Assembly: GCA_937124585.1 (NCBI GenBank)
Contig: CAKZKT010000068.1
Location: 1 to 44,356 of the forward strand
Reading direction: 5' to 3'
DNA length: 44,356 nucleotides
From: an uncultured Anaerolineae bacterium
GTDB lineage: Bacteria > Chloroflexota > Anaerolineae > CG2-30-64-16
Under the pieces are notes generated by a model that was given only the letters and a program-made list of their open reading frames with translations, did no database searches and was not told the origin of the DNA. Positions 1 through 8,428 of the stretch are shown piece after piece (the stretch's first letter is position 1; each line of letters starts with the position of its first letter). A program made the translations under genes and the position numbers.

Positions 1-1172
<1,172 letters not shown>

Positions 1173-1216
1173 CTCATCCCCTCCGGAGAGGAAGCTGGAG
1201 ACCAACTTTGCCCGAT

Positions 1217-1246
1217 GTGCCAGGCACTCGACAAGATGCCCGGCAC
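1217..1246. repeat. Intergenic GTGCCAGGCAC palindrome (argG-argJ gap)
   Basis: Imperfect inverted repeat with arms GTGCCAGGCAC and a GTGCCGGGCAT-like partner around CTTGTCG. It has no T-run. It belongs to the same family as the copies at 13756, 13803, 25524, 31063 and 34352. Confidence 0.7.
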
Positions 1247-1273
1247 GCGGACGCGGCTTGTGTTTATGGCACG

Positions 1274-2542
1274 TTAGTCTCTCTTGAACGCCGTGTAGTC
1301 CGGGCCGGCATGTTTTCCGCGGCCGGCGCCTTCGATATCCAGCAACGCCGCAACCTTCATCGGCAGTCCGAACAGCTTGATGAAGCCCTCGGCATCCTTC
1401 TGGTTGTAGACGTCTTCCTCGCCGAAGGTGGCGTAATCCTCGCGATACAGGCTGTAGGGCGACTTGCGGCCGACAATCATGATGTTGCCTTTGTAGAGCT
1501 TGAGGCGCGCCGTGCCGGTGACATGTCGTTGGGTGACGGCCACGAACGCGTCCAATGCCTCGCGCAGCGGCGTGAACCACTGGCCGTTGTAGACCAGTTC
1601 GGCGTATTTCAGGGCGATCATCTGCTTGTACTGAAGCGTCTGCTTGTCCAGGCAGATCTGTTCCAGCGCGTCATGGCCGCGATAGAGGATCGTGCCGCCG
1701 GGCGTCTCGTAAACCCCGCGCGATTTCATGCCGACCAGCCGGTTTTCGACCAGGTCAATCCGGCCGACGCCATGCTTCGCGCCCAGCTTGTTGAGGGTGG
1801 TGACCAGATCAATCGGGCCCATCGCCACACCGTTGACTCGCTTGGGGATGCCGCTTTCGAAGTAGATCTCGACGTACTCCGGCTCGTCCGGCGCCTGCTC
1901 GGGATTCGTGGTGAGCTGATACATGTCATCGTTGGGCTCGTGCCACGGATCCTCCAGGCCGCCGCCCTCATGGCTCAGATGCCAGATGTTGCGATCGCGG
2001 CTGTAGATGGATTTGAGCGTCGCGGTGACGGGCACATTGTGCTCGGCCGCGTACTTCAGGGCGTCTTCGCGGCTGCGGATGTGCCATTCACGCCACGGCG
2101 CGATGATCCGCAGCTTGGGATTGAGCGCCATGACGGTCAACTCGAAGCGTACCTGGTCGTTGCCCTTGCCGGTCGCGCCGTGTGCCACGGCGTCGGCGCC
2201 CTCCAGCGCCGCGATCTCGACCAGCTTCTTGGCAATCAAGGGCCGGGCGAAGCTGGTGCCCAGCAGATATTCCTTCTCGTAGATGGCGCCGGCCAGCATG
2301 GTCGGATAGATATACTGCGTGATAAATTCCTCGCGCAGATCTTCCAGATAGAGCTTGCTGGCGCCGGAGGCAAGCGCCTTCGCTTCCAGGCCGGAGAGCT
2401 CTTCTTCCTGACCCAGGTTGGCGCAGAAACATATCACCTCGCAGCCATAATTTTCGACCAGCCACGGCACAATGCACGAGGTGTCCAGCCCACCCGAATA
2501 GGCGAGCACAACCTTGTTGACGGATTTCTTCGCTGCAGACAT
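1274..2542 (-). CDS. argG: Argininosuccinate synthase
   Basis: Joins citrulline and aspartate with ATP cleavage to give argininosuccinate. The 422-residue product has the N-type ATP-pyrophosphatase loop AYSGGLDTS at residues 14-22 and the family segments [15 protein letters not shown] and [12 protein letters not shown]. Length fits the family (about 400-440). ATG 2542 is preferred because AAGGAG lies 7-8 nt upstream; a start 42 nt further upstream would overlap hom by 17 bp and lacks such a box. It lies 25 bp after hom and is presumably cotranscribed from the argC promoter at 7.5 kb. Argininosuccinate lyase (argH), its usual partner, is not in view. Confidence 0.97.
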
Positions 2543-2567
2543 GGCAGACTCCTTGGGGTGTAAGTTG

Positions 2568-3608
2568 CTAAATTTGCGAACCACGCATTATGTTGATCAC
2601 ATCCCGCAGTATGGCACCGGCTGTCGGCACAGGGCCACGCTCTTCCACTTTGTACATTTGCAAGCCCATGATGTCGGTCTCGAAAACGATGCCCATCTCG
2701 AAGCCGTTGACCTGGGCCAGGAAGCTGTCCGCGGGCAGCCATTCCGGCCGGACCGCCAACCGATAGCCGCCGACGTCTCGTTCGGCGGTCGCCACCAGCT
2801 TGACCACCTGCCCCTGGGCCGCGCCGTCCCGGATCTGCTCCGCGGTGATCCCCGTGATGCCAACGACCGCCGTGACGTCGGCCAGCGTGGCGGGCTGACA
2901 CAGGATGCTGTTGGCGATGATGACCAGCTTGTTTGCCGTATCCCAGCCTTCGACGTCCAGCCGGGGATCGGCCTCGGCCACCCCTTCGAGCTGGGCCTGC
3001 CGCAGGGCATCCGCGTAGCTCTGGCCGCGAGCCATCGCCGTCAGGATGGAATTGCTCGTCGCGTTGAAGATGCCGCGCACCGAGCGGATCGTGCAGCCGG
3101 CCAGATCGCGGCGGCCGATGTTCACCACGGGCAGGGCGCCGCACACGGTGGCGCTGTAGGCCAGTCCGACGCCGGCCTCTGCCGCTGCCTGCGTCAGCTC
3201 GCCGAAGGCGTGGACGAGCGGCCCCTTGTTCGCCAACACCACATGCATCCCGCGGCGGATGGCCGTCCGCACGCAGTCCAGCCCTGGCTGGCCGGTCTGC
3301 AGGTTCACCGGCGAAGCCTCCAGCAACAGGTCGGCCGGCGCCTGGGCGACCAGCTTGCGCGCGCTCATGCCGGGCACGCCGCCCAGGAAATCGCCGGTAC
3401 GGCCGCCGCGTTCCTTGTGCAGCCGCAGCGCGGTCGGATCTATTCCGCTCTCGGTCATCACCGCGCCGGACGAATCGGCTGCGGCGGTGAGTCGCAACTC
3501 CAGGCCGTACTGTTCCCGGAGCAGCGTGGCTTTTTCGGCCATCAGGGCGAGGAATGAGCGCCCCACATTGCCCAGGCCGACCAGGGCCACGCGTACAGAT
3601 TTCGTCAT
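2568..3608 (-). CDS. hom: Homoserine dehydrogenase, short form without ACT domain
   Basis: Reduces aspartate semialdehyde to homoserine, the branch point to threonine and methionine. The 346-residue product begins with a Rossmann loop, [14 protein letters not shown] (residues 7-20). It has the conserved VVLANKGP (123-130) and the signature region [13 protein letters not shown] (218-230). It lacks the C-terminal ACT domain that gives threonine feedback in longer Hom proteins. AGGAG precedes the ATG. It sits between the N-acetylglutamate synthase gene (16 bp gap) and argG (25 bp gap), so it would follow arginine-operon control. That is odd for an aspartate-family enzyme. The family is clear; another aldehyde-lactone dehydrogenase specificity cannot be excluded. 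Confidence 0.9.
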
Positions 3609-3624: not shown

Positions 3625-4194
3625 TCACGATGTGCCCATCCGCAGCTTCAACCGCTGCATCCGGCCGATCTTCACCCCTTGCCACAGCTCCATGGCGATT
3701 TCCGGCGCCAGCGGCTTGGGGACGACCTGGGGCTCGGTCAGGTTCATCAGCATGGCGATCTCGTCGCAGGCATCGAACTTGGGACAATAGATGCATTCGT
3801 GCCAAATTTTGGGCGGAATAGTCCAGCGGTCCACCGTTACGAAGCCCAGCCGCGCGAAAAAGCTTTCCACCAACGTCAACGCGCAGATCTGTTTGTAGCC
3901 GTCGGCGCGGGCCTTGGCGACCAGCGCCTCGACGAGACGCTTGCCCAGGCCGCTGTTGCGAAATTCCGGCGCCACTGCCAGCGAACGCAACTCGACCAGA
4001 TCGTCGGTCAGCGGCACGTTCGAGCCGCAGCCGACAACCCGGCCATCGCACTCGGCGACCAGGAAGTCCTTGAGCACAGTACGGATCTGTTCCGCAGTGC
4101 GTGGCAACATGAGGTTTTGCGCGGCGTAGGCGTTGACGATCGCCAGGATGGCGCCGATATCCGTTTCGATCGCCGGCCGGATCGTTACTTCCAT
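3625..4194 (-). CDS. argA: N-acetylglutamate synthase, short GNAT type
   Basis: Acetylates glutamate with acetyl-CoA, the first step of arginine synthesis. The 189-residue product is a single GNAT domain with the acetyl-CoA loop RNSGLGKRL (79-87). After the GNAT core a short tail carries three cysteines, HECIYCPKFDACDE (Cys134, 137, 143), as in short ArgA-like synthases; a metal site is possible but unproven. There is no N-terminal kinase-like domain as in classical ArgA. ATG 4194 has GGAGAGGAG just upstream; an alternative ATG at 4212 lacks a box and touches the argD stop. The operon also has argJ, so this enzyme probably primes a cycle that ArgJ then sustains. Confidence 0.88.
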   Translation of the reverse strand: MEVTIRPAIETDIGAILAIVNAYAAQNLMLPRTAEQIRTVLKDFLVAECDGRVVGCGSNVPLTDDLVELRSLAVAPEFRNSGLGKRLVEALVAKARADGYKQICALTLVESFFARLGFVTVDRWTIPPKIWHECIYCPKFDACDEIAMLMNLTEPQVVPKPLAPEIAMELWQGVKIGRMQRLKLRMGTS

Positions 4195-4213
4195 CCTCTC
4201 CTCTCCGATCATA

Positions 4214-5404
4214 TCACAGTTCGGCCAGCACAGCGCGCAGCCGTTCGACCAGCAGATCTATTTCGCCGCGCGAGATGATCAGCGGCGGCACCAGGCGCAG
4301 GGTGTTCGTGCCCGCATTGATGAGGATCAGGCCGTGGCGATGGCCGGCGGCGATCACATCGGCCGCCGCGATGTCCAGATCCACGCCGATCATCAGCCCG
4401 CGGCCGCGCACCTCGGTGATGTGCGGCGAGTTGAGCTCCTCGATGCGTTCCATCAGGTACTCGCCTTTGGCCCGCACATCGGCCAGGAAAGCCGGGTCGG
4501 CAACGCGGCGCACCACCTTCTCGGCCACCGCAGCGACCAGCGGCCCGGCGGCGAAGGTGCTGCCATGTTCGCCGACGTGCATGACCTCGGCCACCTGCTG
4601 GGTCATCAGGATGGCGCCCATCGGCAGGCCGCCCGCCAGCGGCTTGGCAGCCGTGAGGAGATCGGGCGTGATCCCATAGCCCTGATGCGCCCAAAGATAG
4701 CCCGTGCGGCCGAGACCACACTGGATCTCATCGAAGATCAGCAGCGCATGGTGGCGATCGCACAGCGCGCGCAGCCCCTGCAGGAATTCCGGCGTGGCCG
4801 GATGGATGCCGCCCTCTCCCTGTACCGGTTCGACGATCACCGCGCACACGTCATCGCCCATCACCGCGGCCGTGCCCTCCAGGTCGTTGAACGGCGCGAT
4901 GCGCACACCGGGCAAAAGAGGGCGGAAGGGCGCCTGATATTTCTCGCGCGGGGTCGCCGCCAGCGCGCCAAAAGTGCGGCCGTGAAACGCGCCGGTGAAG
5001 GCCACGATGGCCGATTTGTCCGCACCGAAATGGTCGTGCGCCCATTTGCGTGCGAATTTGAACGCGCCTTCGTTGGCTTCCGCGCCGGAATTGGCGAAAA
5101 AGACCCGGTCGGCGAAACTGGTGTCGCACAGCTGCTGCGCCAGTCGAGCGTGGGGTGCGGTATGAAAGAGGTTCGACACGTGCCAAAGCTTGCCCGCCTG
5201 CTCGACCAGGGTCGCCACCAGCTCCGGGTCGGCATGGCCCAGCGCGTTGACGGCGATGCCTGCGGCGCAATCCAGATAGGCCCGGCCCTCGGTGTCGTAG
5301 AGCCAGCAGCCCTGACCATGATCCAGCACGAACGGCGCGCGGGCGTAGGTCTGAAGGACATATTGTTTTTCCAGGGCGAAAGTATTTTTGGTCTCAGATG
5401 CCAT
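4214..5404 (-). CDS. argD: Acetylornithine aminotransferase
   Basis: PLP enzyme that transaminates N-acetylglutamate semialdehyde with glutamate to N-acetylornithine; related members also act on succinyldiaminopimelate. The 396-residue product is full length for class-III aminotransferases. NSGAEANEGAFK (105-116) contacts the cofactor phosphate, FDEIQCGLGRTG (224-235) holds the PLP aspartate, and Lys254 in TAAKPLAGG is the Schiff-base lysine. AGGAG lies 7 nt before the ATG. It is third in the arginine operon, 41 bp after argB. Confidence 0.96.
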   Translation of the reverse strand: MASETKNTFALEKQYVLQTYARAPFVLDHGQGCWLYDTEGRAYLDCAAGIAVNALGHADPELVATLVEQAGKLWHVSNLFHTAPHARLAQQLCDTSFADRVFFANSGAEANEGAFKFARKWAHDHFGADKSAIVAFTGAFHGRTFGALAATPREKYQAPFRPLLPGVRIAPFNDLEGTAAVMGDDVCAVIVEPVQGEGGIHPATPEFLQGLRALCDRHHALLIFDEIQCGLGRTGYLWAHQGYGITPDLLTAAKPLAGGLPMGAILMTQQVAEVMHVGEHGSTFAAGPLVAAVAEKVVRRVADPAFLADVRAKGEYLMERIEELNSPHITEVRGRGLMIGVDLDIAAADVIAAGHRHGLILINAGTNTLRLVPPLIISRGEIDLLVERLRAVLAEL

Positions 5405-5445: not shown

Positions 5446-6216
5446 TTATCCGCTCACGATGGCAGTGCCTTTGCCGGCCGCCAGCCCATCCAGGTCGGTG
5501 ATCACTGCCTGATAGACGCCGCGTTCGACCGCGTCGGTGGCCGAACGCACCTTCGGGATCATGCCGCCGGTGATGTGACCTTCGGCGATCAGTTCTTCGA
5601 TCTGCGTCAGGCTGAGCGCGGCCACGGTGCGCCCTGCCACCTGTACCCCCGGCACATTGCTGACGAAGACCAGCTTGCTCGCTTCCACCGCCTTCGCTAC
5701 ACCGGCGGCTACGTGGTCGGCATTGACGTTGTACGCCAGGCCGTCTGCGCCGAGCGACACCGGCGAGATGACCGGCGTCAGGTCCAGGTCGAGCAGTTGC
5801 AGCAGCGCCTCGCCGTTGACCGTGGCCACCTGGCCGACCAGCCCCAGGCTTTTGCCGCGCACCGTCAGCGGGGTCGTGTGCACCAGCCCCAGGTCCACGC
5901 CGCTGAGGCCCAGCGCGTCCACACCGGCATTCACCAGCCAGCGCACCAGCCGGGTATTCACCGTGCCGTTCAGCACCATCTCGACCAGCCTCATGCTCTC
6001 CGGGCTGGTAGCGCGCAGCCCTTCGACCGTCTCGAACCCGACATCGAGCCGGCTGTGCAGGTCGCTGATCTCCTTGCCGCCGCCGTGGACGATCACCACA
6101 GCGTGTTCGGCCAACAATCCTTTGACCGCGGCCACGAATCCCGCCAGAAACGTCTCGTCTTCGACCTGGTTGCCGCCGATCTTGAGGACGAGGATGGGTT
6201 TATCGGTTGTGCTCAT
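5446..6216 (-). CDS. argB: Acetylglutamate kinase
   Basis: Phosphorylates N-acetylglutamate at the gamma-carboxyl, the step usually feedback-inhibited by arginine. The 256-residue product has the amino-acid-kinase start LVLKIGGNQ (9-17), the glycine loop VIVHGGGKEI (41-50), NVNADHVAAGVA near residue 170 and GGMIPKV near residue 215. It lacks the extended N-terminal helix of hexameric arginine-inhibited kinases, so allosteric inhibition may be weak; this is inferred from length only. AGGAG lies 7 nt before the ATG. A LysZ-like [LysW]-glutamate kinase was considered, but no lysW is present and argC, argD and argJ are of the acetyl type. Confidence 0.94.
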   Translation of the reverse strand: MSTTDKPILVLKIGGNQVEDETFLAGFVAAVKGLLAEHAVVIVHGGGKEISDLHSRLDVGFETVEGLRATSPESMRLVEMVLNGTVNTRLVRWLVNAGVDALGLSGVDLGLVHTTPLTVRGKSLGLVGQVATVNGEALLQLLDLDLTPVISPVSLGADGLAYNVNADHVAAGVAKAVEASKLVFVSNVPGVQVAGRTVAALSLTQIEELIAEGHITGGMIPKVRSATDAVERGVYQAVITDLDGLAAGKGTAIVSG

Positions 6217-6244: not shown

Positions 6245-7288
6245 TCACATCAATCCCCACGTCTCCGGCAGGCCAAACATCACGTTCATGTTCTGCACGG
6301 CAGCGCCCGAAGCGCCTTTGCCGAGATTGTCAATGCTGGATGTGACGATCAACGTTCGGCTATCGGGCACGCAGGTCAGGCCGATGGCGCAGAAGTTCGT
6401 GTTCACCGTGTGGCCCATCGTGGCGACTTGTCCCGGCTTGAGCAGGTAGACTAGCGGCTCTGCGGCATACATCGCTTCATACTGGGCCCGGACATCGGCC
6501 TCCGTAATGCCCTCCGGAAGCGTGACATAAATCGTCGAGAGCATCCCCCGGCTGATCGGCGTCAGATGCGGCGAAAAAATGATCTGCCACCGCCGATTTG
6601 CCATTTGCCCATTTCCCCATTTGCCGATCTGTCCCAGCTCCTGTTCCATCTCCGGCAGATGGCGGTGGGTACGGCCGATGTTGTACGGGCTGAGGTTTTC
6701 ATTGGCTTCGACGAAATGGGTTTTGAGGCTGAGCGAGCGGCCGGCGCCGGAAACGCCCGATTTGCTGTCGGCGATCACCGTGCCGGTGAGCCAGTCGGCT
6801 TTGGCCAGCGGCGCCAGGCCCAGGATGACGCTGGTGGGGTAGCAGCCGGGATTGGCGATCAGATCGGCCTGCGCGATCTCGACCCGGTGCAGTTCCGGCA
6901 GGCCGTAGACCGCCTGCGCCAGCAGGTCGGTCTGCGTATGCGGATGGCCGTACCATTTGGCGTACACGGCGGGATCCTTCAGCCTGAAATCGGCGCTCAG
7001 ATCAATCACCCGTGCGCCGGCCTGGCGTGCCTTCGCCACCGGCTCCAGCGAGACACCATGAGGCAGGCAGCAGAAGACCAGGTCAACCGCGGTCGGGTCG
7101 GCTGCCGCCGCGACGATCAGACTGTATCGTCCGAGTGGGGGCGGCACGGTGAACACGTCGCCGAAGCGCTGGCCCGCCGAGTTCTCTGAGGTGAGCCAGA
7201 CGATGTGCGCTTCGGGGTGGCGTCCGAGCAGCCTGAGCAGTTCCAGACCGGTGTAACCGGTCGCACCGTAGATGCCTATCTTGATCAT
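6245..7288 (-). CDS. argC: N-acetyl-gamma-glutamyl-phosphate reductase
   Basis: NADPH-dependent reduction of N-acetylglutamyl phosphate to the semialdehyde. The 347-residue product starts MIKIGIYGATGYTGLELLRL (nucleotide-binding loop). It has the catalytic cysteine in ANPGCYPTS (Cys149) and the conserved THRHLPEMEQEL (208-219). ATG 7288 is chosen over an upstream GTG because GGAGAAG precedes it and the protein then starts as relatives do. Between THRHLPEMEQEL and FSPHLTPISRG lies an atypical segment, about IGKWGNGQMANRRWQ (221-235), encoded by an 8-bp simple repeat. It is the first gene of the operon, directly downstream of the leader terminator. Confidence 0.95.
   Translation of the reverse strand: MIKIGIYGATGYTGLELLRLLGRHPEAHIVWLTSENSAGQRFGDVFTVPPPLGRYSLIVAAAADPTAVDLVFCCLPHGVSLEPVAKARQAGARVIDLSADFRLKDPAVYAKWYGHPHTQTDLLAQAVYGLPELHRVEIAQADLIANPGCYPTSVILGLAPLAKADWLTGTVIADSKSGVSGAGRSLSLKTHFVEANENLSPYNIGRTHRHLPEMEQELGQIGKWGNGQMANRRWQIIFSPHLTPISRGMLSTIYVTLPEGITEADVRAQYEAMYAAEPLVYLLKPGQVATMGHTVNTNFCAIGLTCVPDSRTLIVTSSIDNLGKGASGAAVQNMNVMFGLPETWGLM
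6596..6634. repeat. 8-bp ATTTGCCC-type tandem repeat inside argC
   Basis: Five consecutive 7-8 bp units (ATTTGCC, ATTTGCCC, ATTTCCCC, ATTTGCCG, ATCTGTCC) lie within the argC frame. This kind of simple repeat is more usual between genes. The reading frame is preserved. Confidence 0.8.
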
Positions 7289-7305
7289 TATTTCTTCTCC
7301 ACAAC

Positions 7306-7337
7306 AAAAAACCAGCACCCTGGTCTGGGTGCTGGTT
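7306..7337 (-). terminator. Leader intrinsic terminator (attenuator) before argC
   Basis: On the minus strand AACCAGCACCC, loop AGACCA, then GGGTGCTGGTT followed by TTTT. This is a perfect 11-bp stem with a T-run, ending 18 nt before the argC ATG. It lies between the promoter at 7498-7526 and argC, so it must be read through for operon expression. Confidence 0.9.
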
Positions 7338-7386
7338 GCCTGTTGCGACGTTGGAGTTCGGCCCGCGCGCTTCCCTCGACCGGGTT

Positions 7387-7437
7387 TTAGCCGGCTGGCG
7401 TAAAGCGACGACGGGGGAAACGCAAGCTACAAGCCAC
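7387..7437 (-). CDS. Arginine leader peptide (16 codons, RRR)
   Basis: A 16-codon frame begins with GTG 7437 and reads MACSLRFPRRRFTPAG then TAA. Four of 16 residues are arginine, three consecutive (CGT CGT CGC). GGAG lies 7 nt before the GTG. It sits about 55 nt downstream of the predicted transcription start and 50 nt before the terminator hairpin at 7306-7337. Promoter, Arg-rich peptide, terminator and arg genes in this order fit ribosome-mediated attenuation: scarce charged tRNA-Arg would stall the ribosome at the RRR codons and alter leader folding. The antiterminator pairing was not identified by eye. Confidence 0.72.
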   Translation of the reverse strand: MACSLRFPRRRFTPAG

Positions 7438-7497
7438 GGAAATGCTCCGAACGACAAAGTGTTTGGATCGGTGCTTTGACTTTTTTGATCTGGCGAG

Positions 7498-7526
7498 AGT
7501 GTAGCACAAGTGGGCGCGGCTGTCAA
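7498..7526 (-). promoter_or_regulatory. Sigma-70 promoter of the arginine operon
   Basis: A consensus -35 TTGACA (7526-7521) and -10 TACACT (7503-7498) are separated by 17 bp on the minus strand. Predicted start is near 7491, giving a leader of about 200 nt before argC. No ArgR-type operator palindrome was recognised around it. Confidence 0.9.
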
Positions 7527-7593
7527 AACACGGTTGGCCGCTATGCAACATTCGAATCGCGGCGGGACAATCGGCTTATTTCCCGAACCACTA

Positions 7594-8295
7594 CTACCAG
7601 TAGTAGCGACGCCACTGGCGGATGCGGCGGGCGCGGGCCAGCCAGGGCAGGCACAGGATCAGGCCGGCGACGAACCCGCCGATGTGTGCGAACCAGGCCA
7701 CCCCCCCGGTCGCCGTATTCATGCCCAATGAGAGCACGCCATTGAAAAGCTGGAGCACGAACCACAAACCCAGCACCAGCACCGCCGGCAGAGAAGCAAT
7801 GCGGCCGAAATAGCCCAGCACAATGAGCGTATCTACGTGGGCGGTCGGGAAGAAGAGCAGGTAGGCAGCCAGCACGCCGGCAATGGCGCCGCTGGCGCCG
7901 ATGCCCGGAACGGTCGAACCCCACGAGGCGATCACCTGCGCGGCGCTGGCGGCGAAGCCGCAGAGAAAATAGAACACCAGGAACCAGAAATGCCCCATCA
8001 CCTCCTCGATGTTGTTGCCGAAAATCCACAAATAGAGCATGTTGCCCAGGATGTGCATGAAGCCACCGTGCATGAACATCGAGGTGACGAAAGTCAACCA
8101 GGTTTGAGGGCCGGGATCGGTGGCCACGCGCGCCGGGACAACGCCGAACAAGAAGATGGCCTGTTGCAAGCCCCGTTCGCCGAAAGCGCCCAACACCAAC
8201 ATCTGGAGCACAAAGACAGCGATGTTGGCGGCAATCAGGGTGACTGTTACCAGGGGGAAACGATAGGTCGGCAGATGATCGCGTATCGGTATCAT
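7594..8295 (-). CDS. Rhomboid-family intramembrane serine protease
   Basis: The 233-residue polytopic membrane protein cleaves transmembrane substrates; its substrates cannot be inferred. HGGFMHILGNMLYLWIFG (76-93) is the rhomboid core helix. GIGASGAIAG (131-140) carries the nucleophile Ser135, and FAHIGGFVAG (202-211) carries the catalytic His204. It opens MIPIRDHLPTYRFPLVT, the usual start of bacterial rhomboids of this type. ATG 8295 is only about 8 nt downstream of a TATACT box, and no Shine-Dalgarno is seen, so the mRNA may be nearly leaderless. It is divergent from asnS and stands alone, upstream of the arg promoter. Confidence 0.93.
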   Translation of the reverse strand: MIPIRDHLPTYRFPLVTVTLIAANIAVFVLQMLVLGAFGERGLQQAIFLFGVVPARVATDPGPQTWLTFVTSMFMHGGFMHILGNMLYLWIFGNNIEEVMGHFWFLVFYFLCGFAASAAQVIASWGSTVPGIGASGAIAGVLAAYLLFFPTAHVDTLIVLGYFGRIASLPAVLVLGLWFVLQLFNGVLSLGMNTATGGVAWFAHIGGFVAGLILCLPWLARARRIRQWRRYYW

Positions 8296-8348
8296 GGATG
8301 TCAGTATAGCACATTGGCCGTTAAATCGCCAGAGCCATTCAGGCCGAC

Positions 8349-8378
8349 GTGACAAATCGGCCCGGCGTATGATATAAT
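8349..8378 (+). promoter_or_regulatory. Promoter of asnS
   Basis: -35 GTGACA (8349-8354) and consensus -10 TATAAT (8373-8378) with an 18-bp spacer. Predicted start near 8385 leaves a leader of about 45 nt with CGGAG before the GTG start. Confidence 0.8.
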
Positions 8379-8428
8379 CTCGTCGTCTGGCCGATCTGAC
8401 CCGGAATACACACAAACGGAGTCCTCAC

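Follow-up and report, generated by a model that had tools for sequence, protein, structure and literature searches.

In amino-acid operons (trp, his, leu, ilv, thr, and phe), attenuation can work through ribosome stalling in leader peptides. For bacterial arg operons, repression by ArgR is the general rule, and textbooks present arginine synthesis as the ArgR pathway. Leader frames with arginine codons have been described in Salmonella, where consecutive Arg codons in the orf34 leader of speF pause ribosomes and alter RNA folding (PMC6386406), and in Staphylococcus aureus, where the leader frame rbfL senses arginine limitation through its Arg codons (PMC13009471). In Pseudomonas aeruginosa, according to work cited in PMC4997734, a leader peptide is encoded upstream of carA, a gene needed for arginine synthesis. 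A survey of actinobacteria reported no arginine attenuator and noted T-boxes elsewhere (PMC1262725), arginine and Chloroflexi are both absent from the main text of a broad survey of terminators (PMC2965389), and attenuation in bacteria was surveyed by Lopatovskaya, Seliverstov, and Lyubetsky in 2010 (as cited in PMC4833913). The preliminary description of the locus studied here knew of no well-described arginine case in this type of bacterium, and we likewise found no arginine leader-peptide attenuator before arginine biosynthesis in the searchable literature, although the 2010 survey may contain an earlier prediction.

The window—the whole 44,356-nt stretch of DNA analyzed here, a contig of an uncultured Anaerolineae bacterium (CAKZKT010000068.1)—has Anaerolineae and Chloroflexi metagenome assemblies as its closest named relatives and carries an arginine operon on the minus strand (Table 1). 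HMM matches back the gene identities in the order argCBDA-hom-argGJ that had been proposed for it. A homoserine dehydrogenase-like gene lies between the GNAT gene and argG, the true start of which is probably an internal ATG (MSAAKK...). At positions 1–184 of the window, 2.9 copies of a 63-bp tandem repeat (91% match) enter argJ in frame past residue ~332 and extend as far as the contig end; either an interruption of argJ or a break in the assembly is possible at this repeat.

Upstream of argC, the promoter, GTG-initiated frame, GGAG box, Arg codons, and terminator named in the preliminary description are each present where it had placed them. One promoter match was found where shuffles would give 0.2, Arg accounts for four of the 16 codons of the leader peptide MACSLRFPRRRFTPAG, and a GC-rich pairing region separates the frame from the terminator, which ends ~15 nt from the argC start (ATG, 7288). 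Folding of the leader RNA as a whole is better than that of shuffled sequence (z −2.75). CGT is rare nearby (16 of 208 Arg codons in ten window genes), yet it dominates the Arg run of the window's family of leaders. Since an Arg cluster as dense occurs in ~8% of dinucleotide shuffles of the window leader (p about 0.08), the frame is not significant when taken by itself, and this figure would fit a real terminator preceded by an incidental short frame, with readthrough either constitutive or mediated by an unknown RNA-binding protein or small RNA. The single leader is only partly beyond chance, and the question was put to argC upstream regions of the class.

Table 1 Coordinates of the arginine operon, its leader and the predicted leader structures in the window, and of two alaS leaders
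Feature	Position (strand)	Details
argJ	1..1250 (-)	upper boundary approximate; runs to contig end
argG	1274..2584 (-)	NF001770, 626 bits
Homoserine dehydrogenase-like gene	2568..3608 (-)	NF004976, over cut-off
GNAT N-acetyltransferase, argA-like	3625..4212 (-)	NF005840, barely over its cut-off
argD	4214..5404 (-)	TIGR00707
argB	5446..6216 (-)	TIGR00761
argC	6245..7288 (-)	TIGR01850, 388 bits
Intrinsic terminator	7304..7337 (-)	11-bp stem 7337-7310, then TTTTTTG; present in 8/8 family members
Region 3, CCCAGACC	7322..7329 (-)	end of terminator 5′ arm plus loop
Predicted free-leader closing helix	7355..7453 (-)	7453-7447 (overlaps Shine-Dalgarno box) with 7361-7355
Predicted free-leader helix of the Arg codons	7362..7415 (-)	Arg-codon run 7415-7405 with 7370-7362
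Region 2, GGTCGAGGG	7373..7381 (-)	proposed antiterminator 5′ strand
Leader peptide ORF	7387..7437 (-)	GTG start 7437; 16 codons; stop TAA 7389-7387
Arg control codons CGT CGT CGC, CGTCGTCGC	7405..7413 (-)	further CGT at 7422-7420
Shine-Dalgarno box GGAG of leader frame	7445..7448 (-)	7 nt before GTG
Sigma-70-type promoter TTGACA-17-TACACT	7498..7526 (-)	extended -10 TG; 10/12 consensus matches
Rhomboid-type membrane protein	7594-8415	by eye; without NCBIfam match; leader sits between it and argC
alaS leader L141	G361:C1:1304212-1304334	L141 and L142: two genomes, one genus
alaS leader L142	G402:C29:109584-109704	

The eight leaders found in the window's family all share TTGACA, GTTCGGAG, the Arg run, ACCCGGTC, and the terminator. 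In the promoter, TTGACA and TG.TA.ACT are kept in 8/8 members, and GTTCGGAG, at the leader Shine-Dalgarno box, is invariant in all eight. Conservation of the leader frame and Arg codons, on which the preliminary description had made its reading depend, holds throughout the family: frame and Arg run accompany the argC upstream region in 8/8 members, the run reading CGTCGTCGY in seven and CGCCCTCGT in L005, and two of the eight (L002 and L004) carry in-frame insertions. Pairwise codon differences among the six leaders of equal length comprise 57 synonymous and 25 non-synonymous changes in the leader frame, as against 4/73 and 1/71 (synonymous/non-synonymous) in the other two frames, and differences per codon position number 21/21/63. 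A synonymous bias confined to this frame argues that it is maintained as a coding sequence, and by this signature the family's leader frame evolves as one. Each of the eight family genomes has one strong match to the leader, always at argC, with no convincing second copy of the family type.

Beyond the family, the leader recurs, modified, in most of the class. The comparison covered 30 argC upstream regions of the class together with named loci; a terminator was counted if it reached −12 kcal/mol and lay no more than 200 nt upstream. Such a terminator precedes argC at 52 of 57 de-duplicated Anaerolineae-type loci, and the strong ones are usually preceded by an Arg-rich short frame (for example MKHFPTQLFRRYRRRQTIGLGFSVV in L077, MLNDVTFFPRRRRSSRTPGLDFSVG in L064, and MTVAFIRFPRIRRLETLPGIGSGAGRRVIGP in L027). 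Five loci are without one, contig ends cutting two of these, and the terminator is absent in at least two class members (L014 and L017). Across the 52 leaders, the best Arg cluster before the terminator averages 3.73 per eight codons where shuffles average 2.02 (sd 1.19), and it is through this class comparison of Arg clusters that the window frame becomes significant. In the same genomes, terminators of this kind are mostly absent within 1500 nt upstream of argH, carA, and alaS; four of the few near argH belong to argG, and no arginine leader was seen before argH or carA in class genomes. Of 45 outgroup argC loci, taken from other phyla and from further classes of Chloroflexota, 11 have terminators, several of them after the end of an Arg/Lys-rich ORF that by eye is rpsI, and in none of the 45 upstream regions did we recognize a leader of this kind.

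That a tRNA-binding T-box or another known riboswitch acts as the sensor appears extremely improbable: some bacteria do regulate arginine genes through T-boxes (PMC1262725), but Rfam scans of the window and of 11 sampled relatives returned no family at threshold, and a relaxed threshold on the leader yielded one irrelevant weak match on the other strand. As a separate observation, the region upstream of alaS in one class genome (L244 in G039) contains, by eye, a T-box-like GGTGGTACCACG segment and a terminator, with Rfam below threshold, which suggests that the class has T-boxes alongside leader attenuators.

ArgR-type repression of the operon, with the leader as a relic, would agree with the general rule for arg operons and with the occurrence of ArgR elsewhere in the phylum: the Arg_repressor domain (Pfam PF01316) is over cut-off in 71 of 301 Chloroflexota genomes. 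All 71, however, belong to other classes, and the domain is found in 0/60 genomes of the class, the window's own genome included; 40 of these are of good quality, and the same search was positive in 9 of 14 control genomes. The pattern across genomes is consistent with ArgR being missing from the class, absence from a draft assembly being no proof for any one genome. We accordingly give repression by ArgR next to no weight.

What remains is whether the leader RNA could switch—that is, whether it offers the mutually exclusive folds that the preliminary description called for. These are clear at the level of the class and weaker in the family to which the window belongs. In the class-wide set, region 2, the stretch that separates the Arg codons from the terminator, complements the terminator 5′ arm and loop (mean z −1.77, n=52), with p<0.05 in 25 of the 52 leaders. 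When segments were swapped between leaders, native pairs proved better than swapped ones (double-centred −2.10 kcal/mol, permutation sd 0.42, 0/20,000), and controls with reversed or farther-upstream segments stayed near zero (−0.18 and 0.03, respectively). In a well-aligned subgroup (alignment A1), six pairs of the terminator helix are changed on both sides and the helix between regions 2 and 3 is formed in 77/77 cells; covariation in region 2 is limited because this segment must pair with both regions 1 and 3. Folding of 47 leaders, with the frames of some (L005, L038, and L060 among them) set by hand, gave probabilities for sequestration of the terminator 5′ arm of 0.63 with a ribosome stalled at the run's first Arg codon, 0.28 with a ribosome at the stop codon, and 0.39 without a ribosome. 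Shuffles attribute to length and composition only ~0.10 of the 0.35 by which the stalled and stop states differ, and in leaders outside the window's family this difference amounts to 0.43, versus 0.11 ± 0.04 in shuffles. Such position-specific antiterminators, together with the recurrent Arg runs and the synonymous-biased evolution of the frame, speak against an incidental frame before a real terminator, which we regard as very improbable.

Within the window's family, the picture is less sharp. For the window leader alone, complementarity between regions 2 and 3 is not significant (p 0.13); in the family, pairing of GGTCGAGGG with CCCAGACC is kept in 8/8 members and is stronger than in shuffled sequence (0/2,000), but the swap test run within the family gives native pairs no advantage over swapped ones. 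Masking by a ribosome at the stop codon was rejected as the family's off state, as it did not release the terminator arm, and the switching logic of the family therefore needs ribosome release. Compared in this manner, stalled minus free sequestration is 0.28, versus −0.03 ± 0.09 in shuffles, with the right direction in 8/8 members. In the predicted free leader, the helix of the Arg-codon run has two pairs changed on both sides (CCC/CGGG vs CCT/CGAG). The closing helix is paired in 96% of cells with one compensatory change, and its support is weak because most of its pairs are invariant. Over the whole free fold, the family shows nine compensatory cells versus 4.4 in shuffles (2/500) and a covariation score of 0.151 versus 0.120 (1/500 shuffles), the compensatory changes including a C-G/U-A exchange in the helix of the Pro-Arg codons. 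In all eight members, the Shine-Dalgarno region complements a downstream CCGAAC (CTGAAC in L004). This pairing possibly limits re-initiation on the leader or makes termination the default for an untranslated leader.

From these folds, a course of events can be proposed for the window. RNA polymerase would start just downstream of 7498, and a ribosome would begin the 16-codon leader. With charged tRNA-Arg plentiful, the ribosome would pass the Arg codons, terminate, and leave; the Arg-codon segment and the Shine-Dalgarno region could then re-pair with their partners, region 2 would be tied up, and the terminator would form before argC. With charged tRNA-Arg scarce, the ribosome would instead stall on CGT CGT CGC and cover the Arg-codon strand, leaving region 2 to pair with the 5′ side of the terminator, and antitermination would carry transcription into argCBDA-hom-argGJ. 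Stalling, the response to arginine, and actual termination are here inferred from comparative sequence and folding.

Further leaders were sought with a covariance model of subgroup A1. Besides leaders at argC, the model found leaders of the same architecture with Arg runs before argG (L145 MKTHIYISSHRRIRRRLTISREFLR and L149 MLNSPDFLTRRIRRRRTRDESGGLGVPGQR) and with Ala runs before alaS (L141 MLNVPFKHVNFAAAAQTASLVGIVA and L142 ...FAAAGRTSSLVGDVA). More argG leaders, with peptides read by eye from the DNA, are L245 (...DIKRRPEEEPDCPSG), L247 (...FKCRRPGKEPGHLSG), and L248 (...NRRRPKEPVSPSG), to which L277 (...RLRRRIRRLHIG...) and L282 (...ALRRRRPAG...) can be added, as well as L246, an Arg-run leader with a terminator upstream of argG. 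In the genomes G414 and G446, argC and argG each have a leader. In several leaders of the argG group, GTCTGGATAG serves at once as the last two codons plus stop (Ser-Gly-stop) and as region 2. The alaS leaders with Ala runs occur in their two genomes and are absent in most other class genomes sampled; their run GCC GCC GCC GCC reads like a CGC run shifted by one base, and another alaS leader, L143, is mixed Ala/Arg and weak. Matches of the model R1 to L146, L147, L148, and L155 were discarded as ordinary terminators without a leader. With Arg runs at argG and Ala runs at alaS, the leader codons mirror the amino acid of the controlled gene, and this tracking is the best argument from sequence for the putative sensing of codons.

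The peptides themselves raise a different possibility. AAP, TnaC, and SpeFL are arrest peptides that sense metabolites in the ribosome tunnel, and the nascent chain F-P-R-R-R might in the same manner sense free arginine or another metabolite, rather than tRNA-Arg charging. A Phe-Pro-Arg context does recur in distant clades (RFPRRR, AFPRRPRP, SFPRRLRRR, and RFPRIRR), and the conservation of these residues exceeds the needs of a bare codon run. However, leader length, C-terminus, and Arg spacing vary freely; an Ala run replaces the Arg run in the alaS leaders L141 and L142 with the RNA arrangement unchanged; and stalling from excess arginine would, in this architecture, switch a biosynthetic operon in the wrong direction. 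We consider an arrest peptide improbable and return to the stalling of ribosomes for want of charged tRNA-Arg.

A classical ribosome-mediated transcription attenuator that senses charged tRNA-Arg thus very probably controls the arg operon of the window. What can be read directly from the genomes is the leader with its coding signature, the terminator, the class-wide complementarity between region 2 and the terminator arm, and the absence of ArgR, and the tests on sequence named in the preliminary description, which had interpreted the locus as an arginine attenuator, came out in favor of that interpretation. Whether the Anaerolineae as a whole, with ArgR missing, control arginine synthesis by attenuators at argC, argG, or both, using an RNA chassis re-specified by its codon run, is a proposal we hold to be evenly poised. 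If true, an entire bacterial class would sense arginine via tRNA charging instead of a repressor, and classical attenuation would extend to Chloroflexota, where we found no report of it. The argC, argG, and alaS leaders would then represent a natural series in which the codon run matches the gene's amino acid, and the leaders of the window's family—with the rare CGT in their Arg run—would offer a test bed for attenuator codon choice.

Set beside the described systems that also read arginine codons, the Anaerolineae leader differs in target and logic. Salmonella orf34 controls ornithine decarboxylase via Rho termination and RNase G decay (PMC6386406) and is without the intrinsic terminator before arginine biosynthesis that marks the Anaerolineae leader, and S. 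aureus rbfL occludes the ribosome-binding site of rbf and so represses its translation, with both gene and logic unrelated (PMC13009471). At P. aeruginosa carA, attenuation is described as pyrimidine-responsive in work cited in PMC4997734, and arginine exerts a separate, transcriptional effect. A T-box at arginine genes (noted in PMC1262725) likewise senses tRNA charging, but it binds the tRNA directly and can do without a leader frame. The closest likeness is to the trp, his, leu, ilv, thr, and phe attenuators, with which the Anaerolineae leader shares a short frame rich in codons for the operon's product and, ahead of the first gene, a predicted antiterminator and terminator that would exclude one another. 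It departs from them in its arginine specificity and its host, the Anaerolineae (Chloroflexota), and, in the window's family, in the predicted pairing of the Arg-codon strand and the Shine-Dalgarno region in the free leader. Its interest lies in the amino acid, the phylum, the class-wide spread, and the absence of ArgR; attenuation of this kind is itself known.
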